Assembly (NCBI RefSeq): GCF_004322855.1
Contig: NZ_CP036402.1
Location: 2,108,001 to 2,172,000, forward strand
Direction: 5' to 3'
DNA from: Egibacter rhizosphaerae
Lineage (GTDB): Bacteria > Actinomycetota > Nitriliruptoria > Euzebyales > Egibacteraceae
Length of the DNA stretch: 64,000 nucleotides
Shown here: in pieces, positions 31,968-43,725 of the stretch
How the letters are laid out: each line of letters starts with the position of its first letter
Numbering within the stretch: the stretch's first letter is position 1
The notes under the pieces: model-generated
Told to the model about the DNA's origin: nothing
What the model saw: the letters and a program-made list of their open reading frames with translations, nothing else
The model's database searches: none
Program-made: the position numbers and the translations under genes

Positions 31968-34148
31968 GTGCGAATCACCACGGTCGGGGGTGGCCCCGCG
32001 GGCCTGTACGCCGCGATCCTGCTCAAGCGCGGGGACCCGACGCGCCACGTCACCGTCTACGAGCGCAACGCGCCCGACGACACGTTCGGGTGGGGCGTGG
32101 TGTTCAGCGCCGCGACCCTCGCCGAGCTCGAGGACACCGACGCGATCAGCTACGACCGCCTGCTGCGCGCCTGTGCCCGTTGGGACCCCGTCGACGTCGA
32201 GCACCGCGGGCGCGTCGTGCGGGCGCTCGGCAACCGCTTCGCCGCGATCAGCCGCAAGCGTCTGCTGCAGATCCTGCAGGAGCGTTGCGGCGAGCTGGGC
32301 GTGGACCTGCGGTTCGAGACCGAGGTTGACCCCACCGACCTCGGCGGCGCCGACCTCGTCCTCGCTGCCGACGGCATCAACAGCCGGGTGCGGGACCAGT
32401 ACGCGGACGTGTTCGCGCCGCGGCGGCGGGTCGAAGGGGGACGGTTCATCTGGCTCGGCACGACCCGGCGCTACGACGCCTTCACGTTCGTCTTCGCCGA
32501 GCACGAGGCCGGGGTCTTCCAGGCGCACGCCTACCCGTACGACACCGAGCTGGCCACCTTCATCGTCGAGTGTGCCCCCGAGGTCTGGCAGCGAGCCGGG
32601 CTCGACACCCGGGCCGCCGGTGAGCTCGCGCCCGGCGAGAGCGACCCGCACGCGATCAAGTTCTGCGAGGAGCTGTTCGCCGACCACCTCGGCGGACACC
32701 CCCTGATGGGGAACTACTCCCGCTGGCTGGAGTGGACGACGCTCTCGAACCGCGCGTGGCACCACGACCGCCTCGCCCTCCTCGGCGACGCGGCCCACAC
32801 CGCGCACTTCTCCATCGGCTCGGGCACCAAGCTCGCGATGGAGGACGCCATCGCGCTCGCCCGGGCCGTGGACACCACGACCGACGTGGCGAGCGCGCTC
32901 GTCGCGTACGAGGCCGAGCGCAAGCCGGTGGTCGAGCGCATGCAGGAGGTCGCGCGCGAGAGCCTCCAGTGGTTCTCGCGCACCGACCGCTACGTGCACC
33001 TGCCGACGCCCCAGTTGGCGTTCGGCCTGTTGGCCCGTTCGCGCCTGACCTACGAGCGCATCCGCCAGCGTGACCCGACGTTCGTGACCGCCGTGGACCG
33101 GTGGTTCGCGGCCCGCAGCCAGCCGCGTGGCGAGCCGACGGCCCCGACCGCCGCGCCACCCCCGGCCTTCGCCCCCGCCCGGATCGCCGGGCTCGGGCTC
33201 GGCAATCGCATGGTGCTCGCCAGCGAGGAGGTCGCGACCGGACGCGACGGGCAGCCGGACGAAGCCACTCCGACCCGTCTGGCGGCGCTGGCGGCCGGCG
33301 GCGCGGGTCTCGCGCTGGTCGAGCGCGTCGCGGTGACCCCCGAGGGGCGCATCACCCCGGAGACCCCGGGGTGCTACACCGACGAGCAGGAGGCGGCGTG
33401 GCGCGACGCCCGGGCGGCCGCACGCGAGCGCGCGGACGACGTGGCGGTCGGGATGCAGCTCGTCCACGCGGGTGCCCGCGGCGCGACCCGGCCACGCCGT
33501 GAGGGGGTGGACGTGCCCCTGCGGGACGCCTGGCCGCTGGTCGCCGCCTCCTCCCGTCCCTACACGCCACGGTCGCCGGCACCCACCCCGCTCGACGCGG
33601 AGGGCCGCGTGCGGGTCCGCGAGGCCTTCGCGGACGCGGCCCGCCGAGCGGCGCACGCCGGGTTCGACCTCGTGGAGGTGCACCTCGGCCACGGGTTCCT
33701 GCTCGGCGGCTACTGGTCACCACTCACGGGCGACGCCGACGACTGGCGCGACCGTCTCGCCTACCCCGGCGAGGTCGTCGCGGCGGTGCTCGAAGCCCTG
33801 GACGGGGCGGCGACCCTCTCTGTCTGCTGGTCCGCCAGCGACCTCGAGCGGGGCGGGACCTCGCCCGAGGACGCGGTCGCCGGCGCCCGCACGCTCGCCG
33901 ACGCCGGGGTGGGCCTCTTCAACGTCGTCGCCGGCCAGACCACACCGCGGGGGGCGCCCGGCTACGAGCCCCACTGGGGCGCGGGCTGGTCCGACCTGAT
34001 CCGCAACGAGGCGGGCGTGCCGACGATCGCCTCGGGCGCGATCCGCGATCCGCTCGACGCGAGCCACGTCCTCGCCGGGGGTCAGGCCGACCTGTGCGTG
34101 CTCGGACGCCCCCATCCCGCCGTGCCCGGGTGGGCCCACGACCTGTGA
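31968..34148 (+). CDS. Bifunctional FAD monooxygenase / old-yellow-enzyme-type reductase, 2-aminobenzoyl-CoA type
   Basis: 726 aa. Residues 1-390 are a p-hydroxybenzoate-hydroxylase-like FAD monooxygenase with GGGPAGLYAAILLKR at the start, LAADGINSRVR, and GDAAHTAHFSIGSGTKLAMEDA near residue 270. From about 405 to the end is an FMN-binding TIM-barrel like old yellow enzyme (ARIAGLGLGNRMVLAS, VEVHLGHGFLLGGYWSP). This fusion is known in 2-aminobenzoyl-CoA monooxygenase/reductase and in salicylyl-CoA 5-hydroxylase-like proteins. The kynurenine-to-anthranilate genes downstream favour 2-aminobenzoyl-CoA. GGAGGG precedes the GTG start. Confidence 0.85.
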   Translation: MRITTVGGGPAGLYAAILLKRGDPTRHVTVYERNAPDDTFGWGVVFSAATLAELEDTDAISYDRLLRACARWDPVDVEHRGRVVRALGNRFAAISRKRLLQILQERCGELGVDLRFETEVDPTDLGGADLVLAADGINSRVRDQYADVFAPRRRVEGGRFIWLGTTRRYDAFTFVFAEHEAGVFQAHAYPYDTELATFIVECAPEVWQRAGLDTRAAGELAPGESDPHAIKFCEELFADHLGGHPLMGNYSRWLEWTTLSNRAWHHDRLALLGDAAHTAHFSIGSGTKLAMEDAIALARAVDTTTDVASALVAYEAERKPVVERMQEVARESLQWFSRTDRYVHLPTPQLAFGLLARSRLTYERIRQRDPTFVTAVDRWFAARSQPRGEPTAPTAAPPPAFAPARIAGLGLGNRMVLASEEVATGRDGQPDEATPTRLAALAAGGAGLALVERVAVTPEGRITPETPGCYTDEQEAAWRDARAAARERADDVAVGMQLVHAGARGATRPRREGVDVPLRDAWPLVAASSRPYTPRSPAPTPLDAEGRVRVREAFADAARRAAHAGFDLVEVHLGHGFLLGGYWSPLTGDADDWRDRLAYPGEVVAAVLEALDGAATLSVCWSASDLERGGTSPEDAVAGARTLADAGVGLFNVVAGQTTPRGAPGYEPHWGAGWSDLIRNEAGVPTIASGAIRDPLDASHVLAGGQADLCVLGRPHPAVPGWAHDL

Positions 34149-34158
34149 GGAGCTGGAC

Positions 34159-34998
34159 ATGAAGGTGGGAGTCGGTCTGCCGAGCTGCGTGCCGGGGTGC
34201 AGCCCCGACGTGCTCGTCGACTGGGCCCGTGCGGCGGAAGCGGGGCCGTTCGCCAGCCTCGGCACCGTCGACCGGGTCCGGTACGGCAACTACGAGCCGC
34301 TCGTGGCCCTCTCCGCCGCCGCGGCGGTGACCAGCCGGATCCAGCTCGCGACCTCGATCCTGATCTCGCCGCTGCGGGAGACGACGACGCTCGCGAAGCA
34401 GATCGCGAGCCTGGACGCGCTCGCGGGTGGCCGGCTCGTGCTCGGGGTCGCCGTGGGCGCCCGGAGAGACGACTACGACGAGGGCGAGCACCCGTACGAG
34501 GAGCGAGGCCGGCGGCTCGACGACCAGCTGCGCGCGTTCCGCGAGGTGTGGGAGGACCCGGCGGTCGGCCCACGCGTCGACGGCCGGGACCGTCCGACGG
34601 TGCTCGTCGGCGGGAGCTCGGGGCCGGCGATGGCGCGCATGGCGCGGGAGGGCGACGGCTTCGTGCACGCGGGCGGACCGCCGCGCGCGTTCGCTCGCGC
34701 CGCCGACCAGGCCCGGGCCGCGTGGGCCGACCTGGGCCGTCCCGGAGAGCCGCAGCTGTGGGGCATGGCCTACTTCGCGCTCGGGGACGCAGCGGACCGC
34801 GGCCGCGAGTACCTGCGCGACTACTACGCCTTCACCGGGCACTTCGCGGAGCGGATCGCCGAGGGCCTGCTCGACACGCCCCTCGCCGTCCGCGAGCTCG
34901 TGGAGGGCTACGCCGACGCCGGCTGCGACCACCTGATCCTGTTCCCCGCGGTCGCCGACCGCGACCAGATCGACCGGCTCGCCGACTGCCTCGGCTGA
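34159..34998 (+). CDS. LLM-class flavin-dependent oxidoreductase
   Basis: 279 aa luciferase-like monooxygenase fold (bacterial luciferase / F420-dependent reductase family). VGVGLPSCVPG at the start, ATSILISPLRETTTLAKQIA and GGRLVLGVAVGARRDDY are typical. Whether it uses FMN or F420 cannot be told. GAGGAG lies 6 bases before the ATG. It follows the bifunctional flavoprotein by 10 bases, so the two are likely cotranscribed. It may act on an intermediate of the same pathway or supply an auxiliary oxidation. It ends 5 bases from the convergent ligase. Confidence 0.85.
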   Translation: MKVGVGLPSCVPGCSPDVLVDWARAAEAGPFASLGTVDRVRYGNYEPLVALSAAAAVTSRIQLATSILISPLRETTTLAKQIASLDALAGGRLVLGVAVGARRDDYDEGEHPYEERGRRLDDQLRAFREVWEDPAVGPRVDGRDRPTVLVGGSSGPAMARMAREGDGFVHAGGPPRAFARAADQARAAWADLGRPGEPQLWGMAYFALGDAADRGREYLRDYYAFTGHFAERIAEGLLDTPLAVRELVEGYADAGCDHLILFPAVADRDQIDRLADCLG

Positions 34999-35003
34999 CG
35001 CGC

Positions 35004-36596
35004 TCAGCCGTCGGCGAGCATGGCGCGCAACGCACCGCGGTCGATCTTGCCGAGGTGCGTCGACGGGAAGTCTTCCAACACGACGATCCGGCGCGGCACC
35101 TTGTTCGGCTCCAGCCGGTCCAGCGCGTGCGCCCGCAAGCGCTCGGCCAGCGAGTCCGTGTCGTCCCCGGTGGGCTCGCTCGGCCGCACGAAGGCGACCG
35201 GCTTGGTGAGGCCGTGGTCGTCGGGCACACCGACCACGGCGCACTGGCCGACGGCCTCGTGCTCGATGAGGCAGTCCTCGACCTCCCCCGGCAGGACCCA
35301 CTTGCCGCTCACCTTGAGCGCGTCGTCGCCTCGTCCGACGTAGCTGATCGTGCCGTCCTCGTGCTGCTGCACCAGGTCACCGGCGACGAACCACTCACCG
35401 CGGAAGGCCTCCATCGTCTTGGGCAGGTCCTGCCAGTAGGAGATCGCCCGCGAGTGCCCCCGCACCCACAGTCGGCCCACCTCCCCGGGCGCCACGTCGC
35501 GCCCCTCGGTGTCGCGGACACGCACGTCGAAACCGGGGACCGGGCGTCCGAGGGTGCCGGGCCGCACGTCGCCGGGGCGGTTGGAGACGAAGATGTGCCA
35601 CATCTCGGCGGTGCCGAGACCGTCCAGGAGCTCCACCCCGAACGTGTCGGTCCACCGCTGCAGCAGCGCCGGCGGCAGGGCCTCGCCCGCGCTCGTGGCC
35701 ACCCGCAGGCACGACAGGTCCTCGGTGGCCGCCCGGGGGTGGTTGGTCATCTCGTGCACCATCTTCGGGACGGTCACGAGGATGGTCGGCCGGTGCCACG
35801 CGATCTCGTCGAACAGGACGTCCGCGGTCGGGTGCGCCGAGAACAGCGCCGTCGAGGCGCCGACGGCGAACGGGAAGAGCAGGTTCGAGCCGGTCGCGTA
35901 GCCGAAGTACAGACCCGGGACCGAGATCGTGATGTCGTCCTCGGCGTAGCCGATGACGCCCTGCGCGTAGCAGCGCGTCGTGTTCACGAACGCCCCGTGG
36001 GTCTGCACGACCGCCTTCGGGCGGCCCGTGGTGCCACCGGAGAACAGCCAGACCGCCGGGTCGTCCCGGTGGGTGGGCACGGGGGCCTCGAGCGGCGGCG
36101 TGCCGGGCGCGGGCAACTCCGACGGTTCGGCCTCGGGGTCCAGGTCGAGCCACGCCGGCCGGGCACCCGCCTCGCCGGTGGCGCGCTCGAGCCGCTCGGT
36201 GTCCCCGCGGTCGCACACGATCGCCGCCGGCCGCACGTACGAGACGATCGCCGCGAGGTTCTCGACCGTGAGGCCCGGGTTCACCATGACCGGCACGGCC
36301 CCCAGATGGCTCGCCCCGAAGAACGCGCCGACGAACGCGGGCCCGTCGGGGAGGGCGAGCATCACCCGGTCCTCCCGGCGGGCCCCGAGCTCGGCGAGCG
36401 CGGTGGCGCAGCGGCGAGCGAGCGCGTCGACGTCGGTGTACGACAGCTCCCCGGTCCCGGTCCGCACGGCGGTCCGGTCCCCGCGGCCCTCGCGCAGCCG
36501 CGCGGTGAGGAACCAGTCGGCCAGGTTCAGGGTCTCGGGGAGATTGGGTTCGCCCAGCTCGGCGTCGGACGCTGCGGCGGGCACGGCCTCGGTCAT
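35004..36596 (-). CDS. Benzoate-CoA ligase family protein, probable 2-aminobenzoate-CoA ligase
   Basis: 530 aa AMP-forming ligase. Its ATP motif is LFSGGTTGRPKAVVQTH, LYFGYATGSNLLFP is typical of benzoate-CoA ligases, and VGRGDDALKVSGKWVLP and LGKIDRGALR are late adenylation motifs. With kynureninase producing anthranilate nearby and the aminobenzoyl-CoA flavoenzyme in the cluster, 2-aminobenzoate is the likely substrate. Benzoate or salicylate remain alternatives. The ATG at 36596 has GAGAGGG upstream. It is divergent from kynA over 167 bases. Confidence 0.85.
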   Translation of the reverse strand: MTEAVPAAASDAELGEPNLPETLNLADWFLTARLREGRGDRTAVRTGTGELSYTDVDALARRCATALAELGARREDRVMLALPDGPAFVGAFFGASHLGAVPVMVNPGLTVENLAAIVSYVRPAAIVCDRGDTERLERATGEAGARPAWLDLDPEAEPSELPAPGTPPLEAPVPTHRDDPAVWLFSGGTTGRPKAVVQTHGAFVNTTRCYAQGVIGYAEDDITISVPGLYFGYATGSNLLFPFAVGASTALFSAHPTADVLFDEIAWHRPTILVTVPKMVHEMTNHPRAATEDLSCLRVATSAGEALPPALLQRWTDTFGVELLDGLGTAEMWHIFVSNRPGDVRPGTLGRPVPGFDVRVRDTEGRDVAPGEVGRLWVRGHSRAISYWQDLPKTMEAFRGEWFVAGDLVQQHEDGTISYVGRGDDALKVSGKWVLPGEVEDCLIEHEAVGQCAVVGVPDDHGLTKPVAFVRPSEPTGDDTDSLAERLRAHALDRLEPNKVPRRIVVLEDFPSTHLGKIDRGALRAMLADG

Positions 36597-36763
36597 GGTG
36601 CGATCCCTCTCGGCACACGGGAACCATCGCGTCGGCACCGCGGTCACCGCGCTGGCCGCCGCGCCGCGGGACGCGATTATTGCGCAGTCATGACCCCCGT
36701 CAACGTCTCGTCAGGTAGGCTGCGCTGACGCGGGAGACACGGACGCGGTCGGAGGGCGCTGCC
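36597..36763. promoter_or_regulatory. Divergent promoter region of aryl-CoA ligase and kynA
   Basis: This 167-base stretch carries promoters for both directions. An A/T-richer patch (GATTATTGCG) lies near 36675, and TAGGCT at 36716-36721 could be a rightward -10. A good -35 was not found. No clear copy of the inverted repeat at 31861 is present here, so shared regulation is not supported by the sequence. Confidence 0.4.
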
Positions 36764-37861
36764 ATGGGCACCGAAGGCGAGCTCTACTACTGGGACTACT
36801 TGGGCCTCGACGCGCTGCTGGCGAGCCAGCAGCCGATCAGCGGGGGCGAGGGCGAGCCCGCCCACGACGAGATGCTGTTCATCATCGTCCACCAGTGCTT
36901 CGAGCTGTGGTTCAAGCAGATCCTCGTCGAACTCGACGACGCGGTCGGCACGATGCACGCCGACACGGTGCCGGAGAAGGAGATGGGACGGGTCGTGGAC
37001 CGGCTCGACCGCATCATCGCGATCCAGCGGCTGCTCACCGGGCAGCTCGAGGTGCTCGAGACGATGACCCCCCTCGACTTCCTCGACTTCCGCGAGCAGT
37101 TGGCGCCCGCCTCGGGTTTCCAGAGCGTGCAGTTCCGTCTGGTCGAGAACCGCCTCGGCCTCGATCCCGAGCAGCGGCTCACGATCGCCGGGGCGTCCTA
37201 CACCGACGTCATGTCCGACGAGCACCGTCGAATGATCGAGGAGACGGAACGGGCCCCCAACCTGCGCGACGCCATCGACCGCTGGCTCGCGCGCACCCCG
37301 TTCCTGCGGTTCGGGGACTTCGACTTCTGGGCGGCCTACCGCGAGGCCGTCGACGCCATGCTCGAGCGCGAACGCGCGAAGGTTTCCGAGCACCCGAACC
37401 TCGACGACGCGAGCCGGGACGAGCAGCTGCAGGCCGTCGAGGAGAGCGCCGCGCAGTTCGAGACGCTGTTCGACGCGGAGCAGTACGAGCGCCTCCGCGA
37501 GCGCGGGCACCGTCAACTCTCTCAGGACGCGTTCTGCGCCGCCCTGCTCATCAGCCTCTACCGTGACGAGCCGCTGTTCCAACTCCCGTTCCGCCTGCTG
37601 ACCGCCGTCACGGACATCGACGAGGGCTTCGCCGCGTGGCGCTACCGCCACGCGCTGCTCGCCCACCGCATGATCGGCGGCAAGGTCGGCACCGGGGGCA
37701 CGGCCGGACACACCTACCTCGAGGCCGCGGCCCGCAAGCACCGGGTCTTCCGCGACCTGTTCGACCTCCCGACGTTCTTCGTCCCACGATCCGCGCTTCC
37801 CGAGCTGCCCGCGGAGGTCCGCGAGCAGCTCTCCTTCCGTTACGAGAGCGCCCCGGCGTGA
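36764..37861 (+). CDS. kynA: Tryptophan 2,3-dioxygenase
   Basis: 365 aa haem enzyme that opens the indole ring of L-tryptophan to N-formylkynurenine. The distal-site HQCFELWFKQ is near residue 43. The proximal haem His is in LLAHRMIGGK near residue 302, followed by VGTGGTAGHTYLEAA and LFDLPTFFVPR. Length is slightly above the common bacterial 280-300 aa but resembles larger relatives. GGAGGGCG lies upstream of the ATG. The stop overlaps the kynureninase GTG, and the formamidase gene follows, giving the three steps of the kynurenine branch. Confidence 0.95.
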   Translation: MGTEGELYYWDYLGLDALLASQQPISGGEGEPAHDEMLFIIVHQCFELWFKQILVELDDAVGTMHADTVPEKEMGRVVDRLDRIIAIQRLLTGQLEVLETMTPLDFLDFREQLAPASGFQSVQFRLVENRLGLDPEQRLTIAGASYTDVMSDEHRRMIEETERAPNLRDAIDRWLARTPFLRFGDFDFWAAYREAVDAMLERERAKVSEHPNLDDASRDEQLQAVEESAAQFETLFDAEQYERLRERGHRQLSQDAFCAALLISLYRDEPLFQLPFRLLTAVTDIDEGFAAWRYRHALLAHRMIGGKVGTGGTAGHTYLEAAARKHRVFRDLFDLPTFFVPRSALPELPAEVREQLSFRYESAPA

Positions 37862-39024
37862 GCTACAAGGCGCACTTCGGGCAGGCGCTCGAGGCCGCGC
37901 CGGGTCGGCTGCACTTCGCCGCGCACAGCCATCATCCCTGGCCGGACGTCACCCGCGAGGCGCAGCTCGCCGCCTGGGACCTCGCCGCGCGCCACCTCGA
38001 CGGCAAGTGGGAGCTGCTCTTCGACCGGGTCGTGCCCGAGGCGGCCGGTCACGTCGCGCGTCGCCTCGCGCTGCCCGACCCCGCGACGGTCGCGTTCGCC
38101 CCGAACACCCACGAGTTCCTGCTGCGGATCCTCTCGTGCGTGCCGCCCGGGGTCTCGCGGGTGCTCACCAGCGACGCCGAGTTCCACACGGCCGAGCGCC
38201 AGTTGCGCCGGCTGGAGGAGGCGGGGGCCGCCACCGTCACGCGGGTGGCCGCCGAGCCCTTCGACTCGTTCCCCGACCGCTTCGTCGACGCCGCCCGGGC
38301 CGGCGCGCACGATCTCGTGCTCGTGAGCCACGTGTTCTTCTCCTCCGGGTACGTGGTGCCCGACCTGCCGGGGCTCGTCGCGGCGCTGCCCGAGGATCCG
38401 CTGGTGCTCCTCGATGGCTATCACGGGTTCATGGCGGTCCCGACCGACCTGTCCGGGATCGCCGACCGGGCCTTCTACACCGCCGGCGCGTACAAGTACG
38501 CGATGGCGGGTGAAGGGGCGTGCTTCCTGCACTGCCCGCCGGGCTGGGGCCCGCGACCGCGGGACACCGGCTGGTTCGCCGCCTTCGGCGCCCGAGACGA
38601 GGGGGCCGCCGATCGGGTCGCCTACCCCGACGACGGGCGACGGTTCCTCGGCGCGACGTTCGACCCCACCGGGATCCTGCGCTTCAACGCCGCACAGCGT
38701 TGGGTCGACGAGATGGGCCTCGACGTGGCCGCGATCCACGCCCACGTGGGCGGGCTGCAGCAGCAGGCACTCGACATGCTCAGCGCCGGAGCCGTCGGTG
38801 CCGTCGACCTCGATGGCCTCGTGCCCCCGCCCTGGGTCCCCGACCGCGGGCACTTCCTCACCTTCGAGACCCCCGAGGCCGGCGCGCTGCAAGCCCGCCT
38901 CGCCGAGCGGGACGTCGTCACCGACCGCCGGGGCGACCGGATCCGCTTCGGTTTCGGCATTTACCACGACCCCGCCGACATCGACGCGCTGTTCGACCGC
39001 CTCACCGAGGTCGCCGGGGCATGA
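37858..39024 (+). CDS. kynU: Kynureninase-like PLP enzyme
   Basis: 388 aa aminotransferase-class-V fold. The PLP Lys is in YTAGAYKYAMAGEG near residue 216, and upstream VLLDGYHGFM carries the cofactor Asp. FAPNTHEFLLRIL and HFAAHSHHPWPD are characteristic segments of a kynureninase subgroup. It would cleave kynurenine to anthranilate and alanine. The GTG start at 37858 overlaps the kynA stop, and a longer frame upstream is shadow of kynA. The gene is diverged enough that another cysteine- or kynurenine-lyase activity remains possible. Confidence 0.82.
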   Translation: MSYKAHFGQALEAAPGRLHFAAHSHHPWPDVTREAQLAAWDLAARHLDGKWELLFDRVVPEAAGHVARRLALPDPATVAFAPNTHEFLLRILSCVPPGVSRVLTSDAEFHTAERQLRRLEEAGAATVTRVAAEPFDSFPDRFVDAARAGAHDLVLVSHVFFSSGYVVPDLPGLVAALPEDPLVLLDGYHGFMAVPTDLSGIADRAFYTAGAYKYAMAGEGACFLHCPPGWGPRPRDTGWFAAFGARDEGAADRVAYPDDGRRFLGATFDPTGILRFNAAQRWVDEMGLDVAAIHAHVGGLQQQALDMLSAGAVGAVDLDGLVPPPWVPDRGHFLTFETPEAGALQARLAERDVVTDRRGDRIRFGFGIYHDPADIDALFDRLTEVAGA

Positions 39025-40190
39025 GCAGCGGCACGGTCGCCGTCCTGCTGGGCCCGGGCACCGACCCCACGCGACGCGGGCTCGTGCACCCCGCCCCCGG
39101 GCGGCTCGCCCGGCTCGTCGACTGGATCGAGGGCTGGGCCACCCACCTCGACGTGGAGGCCCGCTGCGAGGAGGTGGACGCCTCCCGGTGCGCCGACCGC
39201 TTGGCCGAGGTCGTCGCGGACGGCGTCGTGGTCCTGGCAGGCGACGCGGCCTTCGACGACCCGCGCGTCGGTGCGGCCACGGCCACACGCGCCGGCCCGG
39301 TGGTGGACCTGCACCTGCGCGACCTCACCCGCCGCGGCCCGGAGCCGCGGACGTCGTTCCTCGCCCGACACGGCGCCCGCGTCATGCACGGACGCGGCAT
39401 CGACGGCGCGTGGTGGGCGCTGCACCACCTCGCCTGGACGCTCGCGTGGCCATCGAGCACGCGGACCTACGGCCGCCACCCCGAGCAGGTCGTCGAGGTG
39501 CGCGAACCGGACCGGGCCCAGCGCGCCGGGGCGGGTCCGGTCCCCGATCCGGACACGGCCGGCGCGGATGGCCCGCTGTCCACCGTCGTGCTCCTGCACG
39601 GCGGGTTCTGGCTCGCTCCCTGGGAGCGCGACCTCATGGACGGACTGGCGGTCGACCTGGCGCAACGTGGAGCCCGCACGTGGAACGCCGAGTACCGCCG
39701 CATCGACACGGACGGCGAGTGGCCGGGGTGCGGTGCGGACGCGCTGGCGGTGCTGACCGCAGCCGACCGGGCGCGCGGTCCCGGCGACCCACCGGTGATG
39801 GTGGTGGGCCACTCGGCCGGCGGACAGCTGGCCCTCTGGGCGGCCGGGCAACCGACTGCTCCACCGCTCGAGGCGGTGATCGCCCTGGCCCCCCTCGCGG
39901 ACCTCGCCAACGCGGGCGATCTGGGCGGCGGTGCGCTCGAGCGGATGCTCGCCGGCGCCGACCCCGGACGGGCCTGCCCCACCGGGGCGGTGCCCACCGA
40001 GGTGCCGCTCACGCTCGTGCACGGCGTCGACGACGACCTGGTGCCCGTGTCCCAGAGCCGCGCGTACGCGACGGTCGCCCGCGCAGCCGGGGCGATCGTG
40101 CAGCTCGACGAACGCGGCGATGCCGACCACTTTTCGCTGGTCTCGCCGGGAGCTGGCTGGTTGGACGTGTTCGCCGATACCGACCGCTGA
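39021..40190 (+). CDS. Dehydroquinase-like domain fused to a kynurenine-formamidase-like hydrolase
   Basis: 389 aa with two parts. Residues 1-145 align by eye with type II 3-dehydroquinate dehydratase (VAVLLGPGTDPTRRG, VVVLAGDAAF, VVDLHLRDLTRRG). The conserved Asn and His of that enzyme are not evident, so it is probably not catalytic. Residues 190-389 are an alpha/beta hydrolase of the kynurenine formamidase type. HGGFW is the oxyanion segment, the nucleophile Ser is in GHSAGGQLAL, the Asp is in HGVDDDLVPVSQ and the His in DADHFSLV. It overlaps kynureninase by ATGA, so hydrolysis of N-formylkynurenine is the likely job. Confidence 0.82.
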   Translation: MSSGTVAVLLGPGTDPTRRGLVHPAPGRLARLVDWIEGWATHLDVEARCEEVDASRCADRLAEVVADGVVVLAGDAAFDDPRVGAATATRAGPVVDLHLRDLTRRGPEPRTSFLARHGARVMHGRGIDGAWWALHHLAWTLAWPSSTRTYGRHPEQVVEVREPDRAQRAGAGPVPDPDTAGADGPLSTVVLLHGGFWLAPWERDLMDGLAVDLAQRGARTWNAEYRRIDTDGEWPGCGADALAVLTAADRARGPGDPPVMVVGHSAGGQLALWAAGQPTAPPLEAVIALAPLADLANAGDLGGGALERMLAGADPGRACPTGAVPTEVPLTLVHGVDDDLVPVSQSRAYATVARAAGAIVQLDERGDADHFSLVSPGAGWLDVFADTDR

Positions 40191-41545: not shown

Positions 41546-42478
41546 ATGCAACGCCGAGGACGGGTGGCGGTCACGCCGACGCGTGTCGAGGAGATCGAAG
41601 CGGCGGTGCAGGCGGGTGGCGCGACGCTGGCCACGCCGGAGACGGCCGACGCCATCGTGTGGACCAGTCCCGCGGACATCGAGGCACTGCGTGCCGTGCT
41701 CGGCCCACAGCACCGTTGGGTGGCGTTGCCGATCGCGGGGGTGGAGCAGTGGCTGGCCTCGGGCATCATCGACGACACTCGCACGTGGACGTGCGCGAAG
41801 GGCGTGTACGCCCCGGGCGTTGCCGAGCACGCCGCGGCGATGGTGCTCGCGGGCGCGAAGCAGCTCCCCGCCGCCGCCAGGGCCGATGAGTGGGGTGCCG
41901 CCCCGGTCGGGCGTCGCCTCGAGCACGCCTCCACGCTCGTCGTCGGCACGGGCGGCATCGGACGCCGGGTCGCGGCGCTGCTCGCGCCGTTCGGGTCCCG
42001 GGTCGTGGGCGTGAACCGCCACGGGCGCCCGGTTCCGGAGTTCGAGCGAACACATCCGGCGGACCAACTGCACGATGCGGCGACCACCGCGGACTTCCTG
42101 GTCCTCTGCTGCGCGCTCACACCCCGCACGCGCGGCCTGGTCGGGCAGGAGCTGCTGGATCGCCTACCGCCGGGCGGGTGGGTGGTGAACGTCGCGCGCG
42201 GTGGACTCGTCGACACCGACGCCCTCGTGCGCTCCCTTCGCTCCGGGCATCTCGGGGGAGCCGCCCTCGACGTCACCGACCCCGAGCCGCTGCCGCGTGA
42301 CCACCCGTTGTGGTCGTTCCCCAACGTCCTGATCACGCCGCACATCGCGAACCCGCACGACGGGATTCCCTGGTCGGCCCACCTGCCCGAGCTCGCCGCC
42401 CACATCGAACGTAACGTCCGTGCCTACCTCTCCGAGGGCGATCTCGAAGGGCGTGTGGACGGCACGGAGGGCTATTGA
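41546..42478 (+). CDS. D-isomer-specific 2-hydroxyacid dehydrogenase
   Basis: 310 aa NAD(P)-dependent enzyme. The nucleotide motif is VVGTGGIGRRVAALLAPFG near residue 133. The catalytic Arg is in NVARGGLVDTD, the Glu in VTDPEPLPRDHPL and the His in ITPHIANP, all as in the family. The amino substrate-binding part is shorter than usual. Together with the upstream aminotransferase it could make or use an aryl 2-hydroxyacid from an aromatic 2-oxoacid (inference). The ATG at 41546 has AGAGGTCCCG upstream. Confidence 0.88.
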   Translation: MQRRGRVAVTPTRVEEIEAAVQAGGATLATPETADAIVWTSPADIEALRAVLGPQHRWVALPIAGVEQWLASGIIDDTRTWTCAKGVYAPGVAEHAAAMVLAGAKQLPAAARADEWGAAPVGRRLEHASTLVVGTGGIGRRVAALLAPFGSRVVGVNRHGRPVPEFERTHPADQLHDAATTADFLVLCCALTPRTRGLVGQELLDRLPPGGWVVNVARGGLVDTDALVRSLRSGHLGGAALDVTDPEPLPRDHPLWSFPNVLITPHIANPHDGIPWSAHLPELAAHIERNVRAYLSEGDLEGRVDGTEGY

Positions 42479-42506
42479 CCAGCGCCAGCCCGTGTATGTT
42501 GCGCTC

Positions 42507-42534
42507 TTGCACGTCGTCACAATCGCGTTATACG
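42507..42534 (+). promoter_or_regulatory. Probable promoter of the ABC importer operon
   Basis: TTGCAC (42507-42512) and TATACG (42529-42534) are 16 bases apart, a good sigma-70-type match in the 116-base gap before the substrate-binding lipoprotein. Transcription would begin near 42541, leaving a leader of about 55 bases. Confidence 0.6.
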
Positions 42535-42594
42535 CTGCTTCGCCACGCACACTCGTCCGCGCCCTCGGCACGGGACCGGACGGAGAGGCCAGCG

Positions 42595-43725
42595 ATGAGG
42601 TTCAGCGGGATACTCGCCATGGTCGTCCTTCTCGCGCTGGTGTTGGCGGCGTGCGACGACGAGGACGTCGCGATCGAGGAGCCGCCGGGCGACGACGAGG
42701 AACCGGACGAGCCGGAACCCGACGAGGAACCCGAGGACGAGGATCCGGCCGACGAGGACGAGCCCGACGACGACGAGGACGAGCCCGACGACGACGAGCC
42801 CGACGACGAGGATCTCGTCACGATCCGCATGGGCTGGGGCGTGCCCGTCGAGGAACACAAGTACGTCATGATGGCCTTCCCCGAGGTCGCCCCCAACCTC
42901 GGTGAGGAGTACGAGGTCGAGTGGCTGCAGTTCGCCGGTACCGCGCTCGGAGTTCAGGGGCTGGCCGCGGGCACGTTGGACGGAGCCACCGTGGGCGGGC
43001 TCTCCAGCGCAAACGGGCTCGCCGAGGGCGCCGACATCGTCCTGACCGGCGCGATGATCGAGGAGCGGGAGATCTGCACGACCCCGTACGTCGTACGGGC
43101 CGACGACGACATCGAGGAGCCAGCCGACCTCGAGGGGCGCGTGCGCGGCACCTCGGCGATCGGGGGCTCCACCCACTACATCGGCCGCGCGGAGTTCGAG
43201 GAGGCCGGACTCACCGAGGACGAGGACTACGAGGTCGTCGAGGTGCCGTTCGCGCAGGGCGAGGAAGCGCTGCGCGAGGGGGAGATCGACGTGATGGAGC
43301 TCGCCAGCTTCTTCGGTATCCAAGCCCTCGACAGCGGCGACTTCGAGACCCTGTTCTGCGTCACCGACGTCGTTGATCCGTTCGTGCAGCTGCTCCAGGG
43401 CTTCCGGGGCGAGTTCATCGAGGAGCATCCCGAGGTCGTCGAGGCCTTCCAGGAGGACTGGCAAACGGTCACCGAATGGGTACTGGATCCGGACAACCGC
43501 GATGACGTGATCACCGCGACCCACGAGGCCACGGAAATGCCCGAGGACCTGCTGGAGGGGTTCCTGCTGATCGACGATCTCGACTACAACCGGCCACCGC
43601 AGGGTGGCTTGGACGTGGAAGCGCTCCAGGACAACTGGGACTTCTTCCACGAGGTCGGCGAGCTCCCCGAGCTCGACGTACGCGAGCACGTGGACGAGGA
43701 GTTCACGCTGGAGGCGGAGGACTGA
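42595..43725 (+). CDS. NMT1/SsuA-type substrate-binding lipoprotein
   Basis: 376 aa. A signal with lipobox (LVLAAC, Cys about 20) is followed by a roughly 50-residue stretch that is almost only Asp, Glu and Pro. A periplasmic-binding-like domain of the nitrate/sulfonate/taurine/thiamine-precursor type begins at ITIRMGWG-like TIRMGWGVPVEE. AAGTLDGATVGGL and LEGRVRGTSAIGGSTHYI fit that family. The substrate is unknown. The ATP-binding and permease genes follow. GGAGAGG precedes the ATG. The acidic linker is longer than needed for tethering and fits a salt-adapted surface. Confidence 0.85.
   Translation: MRFSGILAMVVLLALVLAACDDEDVAIEEPPGDDEEPDEPEPDEEPEDEDPADEDEPDDDEDEPDDDEPDDEDLVTIRMGWGVPVEEHKYVMMAFPEVAPNLGEEYEVEWLQFAGTALGVQGLAAGTLDGATVGGLSSANGLAEGADIVLTGAMIEEREICTTPYVVRADDDIEEPADLEGRVRGTSAIGGSTHYIGRAEFEEAGLTEDEDYEVVEVPFAQGEEALREGEIDVMELASFFGIQALDSGDFETLFCVTDVVDPFVQLLQGFRGEFIEEHPEVVEAFQEDWQTVTEWVLDPDNRDDVITATHEATEMPEDLLEGFLLIDDLDYNRPPQGGLDVEALQDNWDFFHEVGELPELDVREHVDEEFTLEAED

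Follow-up and report, generated by a model that had tools for sequence, protein, structure and literature searches.

The window analysed here is a stretch of 64,000 nucleotides from Egibacter rhizosphaerae. On its forward strand, positions 39021-40190 hold a gene in which a dead type II 3-dehydroquinate dehydratase (AroQ) domain is fused to an alpha/beta-hydrolase. The gene runs from an ATG at 39021 to a stop codon at 40188-40190 as a single open frame of 389 codons. Residues 1-145 of the 389-residue protein (39021-39455) form the degenerate dehydroquinase domain, recognised by matches to PF01220, to PDB entries and of a profile made from decayed domains only. Residues 150-389 (39468-40187) form the hydrolase domain, which is kynurenine-formamidase-like and is recognised by Pfam BD-FAE (1e-7) and by the profile of its own family. 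Residues 170-182 (39528-39566) are a low-confidence linker insert, with a pLDDT below 50 and a gap in all aligned relatives. The hydrolase has a HGGFW oxyanion motif that is conserved in the alignment (residues 193-197, 39597-39611) and a complete catalytic triad. The nucleophile Ser265, in GHSAG (39813-39815), is invariant in the A1 alignment, and so is Asp338 (40032-40034), which is found in 113 of 116 fusions with a gap in the other three; His370 (40128-40130) is nearly invariant. A pseudogene or frameshift is ruled out by the open frame, the four-base overlap at the start and the conserved triad, and an assembly artefact by the many independent assemblies with the same fusion and by the single contig of the window genome.

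The ATG of the fusion gene overlaps, within ATGA at 39021-39024, the stop codon of a gene for a kynureninase-like PLP enzyme (37858-39024, forward strand; KYNU_C 1.3e-5, with kynureninase 1qz9 at 3.7e-7 as the only PDB match). The GTG of this gene overlaps, within GTGA, the stop codon of a tryptophan 2,3-dioxygenase gene (TDO; 36764-37861, forward strand; PF03301 3.4e-100), i.e. it shares four bases with each of its neighbours. The original prediction had placed the fusion in tryptophan breakdown, and these two overlapping genes bear this out. The cluster also contains a benzoate-CoA-ligase family protein on the reverse strand (35004-36647; TIGR02262 7e-130, above the cut-off), which judging by its context is likely an anthranilate-CoA ligase. 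On the forward strand there are an LLM-class flavin/F420 oxidoreductase (34159-34998; PF00296 2e-35) and an anthraniloyl-CoA-monooxygenase-like flavoprotein, FAD monooxygenase plus OYE (31968-34148; Pfam FAD_binding_3 and Oxidored_FMN), whose match to PRK08255 (6e-233) is below the equivalog cut-off. The cluster suggests a route from tryptophan through N-formylkynurenine, kynurenine and anthranilate to anthraniloyl-CoA chemistry, the last steps being read from what is known of the families.

Residues 1-163 match PF01220 with an E-value of 4.8e-4. The domain scores 20.3 bits and the full-length protein 17.7, both short of the curated Pfam cut-off of 23.3, and TIGR01088 is missed as well (19.3 against 169.85). 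The NCBIfam aroQ models match at 9e-5 to 5e-3, and among 17 PDB matches 16 are AroQ, led by the M. tuberculosis enzyme (E=0.0015). A profile made from ten decayed domains only finds AroQ structures at E=9.5e-13, dozens of them consecutively and with nothing unrelated near, and hhalign aligns it with the AroQ of the own genome (E 6.8e-5, probability 63.5%); the window genome has a separate, normal AroQ elsewhere. In addition, graded relatives connect the window domain to fully intact AroQ domains; the N domain of G050 matches PF01220 at 1.5e-14. Because of the decayed-only profile match and this graded series, a chance resemblance can be ruled out, and at the level of sequence the N domain is confirmed as homologous to type II AroQ across the domain. 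The anatomy that had been proposed, a degenerate AroQ followed by a formamidase-type hydrolase, is thereby supported by homology matches as well as by the intact Ser265-Asp338-His370 and HGGFW.

The original prediction expected a flavodoxin-like AroQ fold. In the model of the whole protein built with 15 relatives (pLDDT 80.8, pTM 0.84), the predicted strands and helices of the N domain alternate in the AroQ order, with low confidence for residues 15-24, the expected position of the AroQ lid loop. The N domain modelled alone and without relatives reaches a pLDDT of only 36.6, and the best 50 Foldseek matches of the full model are all hydrolase-fold proteins. The assignment of the fold therefore rests on the sequence homology and on the relatives-based model.

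The active site was examined with residues numbered as in M. tuberculosis and substitutions read from alignments. In the window domain N12 is replaced by G, N75 by L, H81 by F, R112 by P and E99 by D, and Y24 is not conserved, its loop being reshaped. H101 and R108 are retained and R19 apparently so, leaving the catalytic set N12, R19, Y24, N75, H81, H101 and R112 incomplete. The loss of the active-site Asn and His, which had been noticed earlier, is thus seen at N12, N75 and H81, with H101 still present. As most of the catalytic residues are lost, dehydration of dehydroquinate cannot be expected from a protein with this sequence. At the active-site columns no alternative residue is conserved across the 14 decayed relatives, and in L005 and L006, of the same family as the window protein, the N domain has shrunk by about one third. 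Compared with type II AroQ (PF01220; M. tuberculosis 1h05, 4ckw), the window domain has a homologous sequence, alternating strands and helices in its model, and both H101 and R108, but it is without N12, Y24, N75, H81 and R112, scores under the family cut-off and is fused to a hydrolase; the AroQs known to us are single-domain proteins.

The HGGxW motif marks the alpha/beta-hydrolase kynurenine formamidases and is also present in related esterases. The profile of the hydrolase family matches the Drosophila kynurenine formamidase 4e11 at 3.5e-14. The top PDB relative is the carboxylesterase 9x6a (2.5e-53), which together with other esterases matches the profile equally to or better than 4e11, and the Foldseek matches of the window protein include both kinds. 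The window hydrolase is therefore like the AFMID-type formamidases of Drosophila (4e11/4e15) in its HGGxW motif, its Ser-Asp-His triad, its profile match and its Foldseek match; unlike them it carries an AroQ domain and is closer in sequence to 9x6a, and its activity is predicted.

Within the window's class, of 26 genomes that encode the hydrolase 22 also have TDO, against 8 of the 40 that lack the hydrolase (Fisher p=2e-7, with no correction for kinship), and no genome of this class has a cyclase-type formamidase, KynB (TIGR03035), over the curated cut-off. A KynB elsewhere in the window genome was considered as the true formamidase and rejected, the best match of this type being weak (2.1e-13) and at a locus unlinked to the fusion. 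Given the co-occurrence with TDO and the absence of a cyclase-type formamidase over the cut-off, the context indicates that the window hydrolase is most likely the kynurenine formamidase of the tryptophan-breakdown pathway. Its linkage to TDO and to the kynureninase-like gene, through four-base overlaps and co-occurrence, is that expected of a formamidase, and this hydrolase family probably provides the formamidase step that was missing from tryptophan breakdown in this group of bacteria.

In total, 116 distinct AroQ::hydrolase fusion proteins were found, including the window protein, most of them from an Acidimicrobiia-type class. The search in other genomes, proposed with the original prediction, thus gave 115 further proteins, and in most of these the AroQ half is intact. 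Both halves are intact in 88 of the 116 (all nine AroQ residues and Ser-Asp-His). A dead AroQ is combined with an intact hydrolase in 14, including the window protein; Ser and Asp are present in all of these, and His wherever the contig extends far enough. The hydrolase Ser is replaced in seven (six Ser to Gly, one Ser to Glu), all with an intact AroQ, and two (L236, L237) combine an intact AroQ with a hydrolase remnant that has neither HGGFW nor GHSxG. The remaining five are edge, truncation or single-residue cases, and none of the 116 has both halves dead. The Ser-less fusions are L113 7001-8158, L115 7677-8879, L116 7680-8840, L143, L149, L151 and L157, and their Asp and His stay. L277 and L278, from G620 and G766 of one genus, are the same genes as L236 and L237 with more flank, and show an intact AroQ followed by a shortened hydrolase remnant.

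Intact AroQ halves within the window's class are found in G026 and G028. The sole AroQ of G026 is L011 1423-2601 and that of G028 is L016 1450-2613, both of them fusions. In G050 the AroQ half is recognisable yet dead, and further decayed halves are present in the window genome (G000), G014, G015, G021, G023, G025, G027, G037, G047, G048 and G061. In the class of G118, 395 genomes were searched and at least 95 carry an uninterrupted, essentially full-length fusion; this search also gave an additional decayed lineage in G598 and G622, and four members of the G118 family (L255-L258) have AroQ alone. A junction-based scan of named genomes gave 15 loci, all with an intact AroQ half and mostly labelled Acidimicrobiia or other Actinomycetota, two being labelled Acidobacteria MAGs.

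The literature searches turned up no description of an AroQ::hydrolase fusion, in agreement with what the original prediction stated, and the AroQ set in PMC4314829 consists of single-domain proteins of 15-18 kDa. The fusion is an established family, apparently undescribed in that literature, and most of its members have two intact halves. About one in four sampled genomes of the Acidimicrobiia-type class has it.

The window protein shares the domain order, a GRGxxGYRWAxxHL-type junction motif and the hydrolase family with the intact fusions (L104-L118, L135-L231). Unlike in the window protein, the AroQ residues of these fusions are complete, and the fused AroQ is the sole full AroQ in 17 of 17 genomes checked, one of which (G425) has an extra match to a 41-residue AroQ fragment. 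Of the 11 genomes checked that carry a decayed fusion, 10 also have a separate AroQ; in G037 none was found. As the fusion is the only full dehydroquinase in each genome checked, the shikimate pathway of the intact-fusion genomes probably runs through the fusion protein, of which an annotation may name one half only.

The two groups also differ in their neighbours, given here if a family or BLAST match backs them. Decayed fusions adjoin kynurenine or anthranilate-CoA genes in G021, G023, G027, G050, G015 and G047, and an LLM oxidoreductase gene in G021, G023, G027, G050, G015 and G598, whereas no kynurenine genes lie beside intact fusions in the loci examined. The intact fusions of G026 and G028 adjoin an RNase E/G gene, with a sigma factor also in G026; other neighbours of intact fusions are lipoate-ligase-like genes (L111, L115, L116) and a YhhN gene (L108). 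TDO is present in five of 15 genomes with an intact fusion and absent from the other ten; G118, rated 100% complete, has an intact fusion and no TDO. Since intact fusions are often found in genomes without TDO, the ancestral substrate of the hydrolase was probably not N-formylkynurenine.

We estimated dN/dS with the Nei-Gojobori method; the dS values are approximate, given how divergent the sequences are and their GC contents. The dead N domains have values of 0.32-0.63 versus 0.24-0.42 for their attached hydrolases, and in almost all decayed pairs the N domain has the higher value of the two. Intact and Ser-less fusions give about 0.08-0.33 for both halves. Selection on the dead AroQ domain is relaxed yet still constraining, and as its dN/dS is below 1 a kept structural role is favoured. 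The Ser-less hydrolase halves may be working pseudohydrolases, because their dN/dS stays low (0.14-0.24); four of them were included in the hydrolase tree, where they cluster as a single supported clade.

Three changes between fused and unfused are required on each tree, against shuffled means of 24 for AroQ and 28 for the hydrolase. One origin followed by a few losses or transfers would agree with this, although a single origin is not proved since the backbones of both trees lack resolution. On either tree, L180 and L203 from the G118 class group with the intact fusions of G026 and G028, whose congeners G024 and G029 have a distant stand-alone AroQ. This suggests that the whole fusion was transferred into G026 and G028, where an essential gene was likely replaced horizontally.

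We consider it probable that the window protein is the formamidase of the operon, carrying a dead but structurally constrained AroQ domain and derived from an active AroQ::hydrolase ancestor. The account starts from the observed homology of both halves, the residue loss, the operon overlaps, the copy-number pattern and the spread of the fusion; from these we infer the formamidase activity, the direction of evolution and the structural role. The ancestral gene would have encoded an active type II dehydroquinase fused to a hydrolase. Where it was the sole AroQ of a genome, the fused AroQ would have retained all catalytic residues, and in lineages with a separate AroQ the hydrolase would have come to work within a tryptophan-breakdown cluster while the catalytic residues of the fused AroQ were lost. 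In the window operon, TDO would make N-formylkynurenine from tryptophan, the hydrolase would convert this to kynurenine and the kynureninase-like enzyme would produce anthranilate, which the operon would carry onward to anthraniloyl-CoA products. The dead AroQ would remain, under relaxed purifying selection, as a folded structural part that serves the packing, solubility or assembly of the hydrolase. The pattern fits genomes that keep another AroQ and have lost the redundant catalytic half, with a structural constraint remaining; the shrunken N domain of L005 and L006 speaks against retention for a full AroQ-type oligomer. With decay that has hit either half but in no protein the two together, the family serves as a natural experiment on the fate of fused enzymes after one activity turns redundant.

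The substrate could be a different one. With a carboxylesterase as the top PDB relative and intact fusions in genomes without TDO, e.g. G118, the hydrolase might be an aryl esterase or amidase whose position in the operon serves a side reaction; the four-base overlaps with the TDO and kynureninase-like genes, the co-occurrence with TDO in the window's class and the lack of any other good formamidase candidate make this unlikely. The N domain, in turn, could be a functionless relic, in frame merely because it lies upstream of the hydrolase in the gene. Its dN/dS above that of the hydrolase, its scattered catalytic residues and its shrinkage in L005 and L006 agree with this, but values of 0.32-0.63 are well below 1 and motifs like GRGxxGFxWALxHL are widely kept, and we find a pure relic doubtful.

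The original prediction gave the domain a more active part, as a sensor of a shikimate-like or aromatic compound that tunes the formamidase. The constraint on the domain (dN/dS <1), the retained H101 and R108 and the location in a tryptophan-breakdown operon are in line with such a regulator. However, the pocket residues N12, N75, H81 and R112 are lost with no conserved replacement among the decayed relatives, so a regulatory ligand site is unsupported; the lid region is of low confidence in the model, and the domain is shortened in L005 and L006. We regard a tuning role as very improbable. It is also conceivable, and we hold this only tentatively, that AroQ and hydrolase depend on each other physically, as a joint assembly whose halves can each lose their chemistry and stay selected as a scaffold or an allosteric partner of the other. 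If so, aromatic amino-acid synthesis could be coupled to an aromatic hydrolysis step, and both the Ser-less hydrolases (L113/L116/L143 group) and the dead AroQ halves would be working pseudoenzymes.

Two minor observations were made in the same genomes. Short TDO matches, mostly two pieces of one frame with weak E-values, are found in G004, G008, G013, G016, G020, G431 and G434, and perhaps represent a shortened TDO-like family. In the window, positions 42475-43725 of the forward strand encode a lipoprotein-like protein with a very long acidic stretch rich in Asp, Glu and Pro after the signal; it is followed by ABC transporter genes from 43877 on, and is probably a solute-binding protein.
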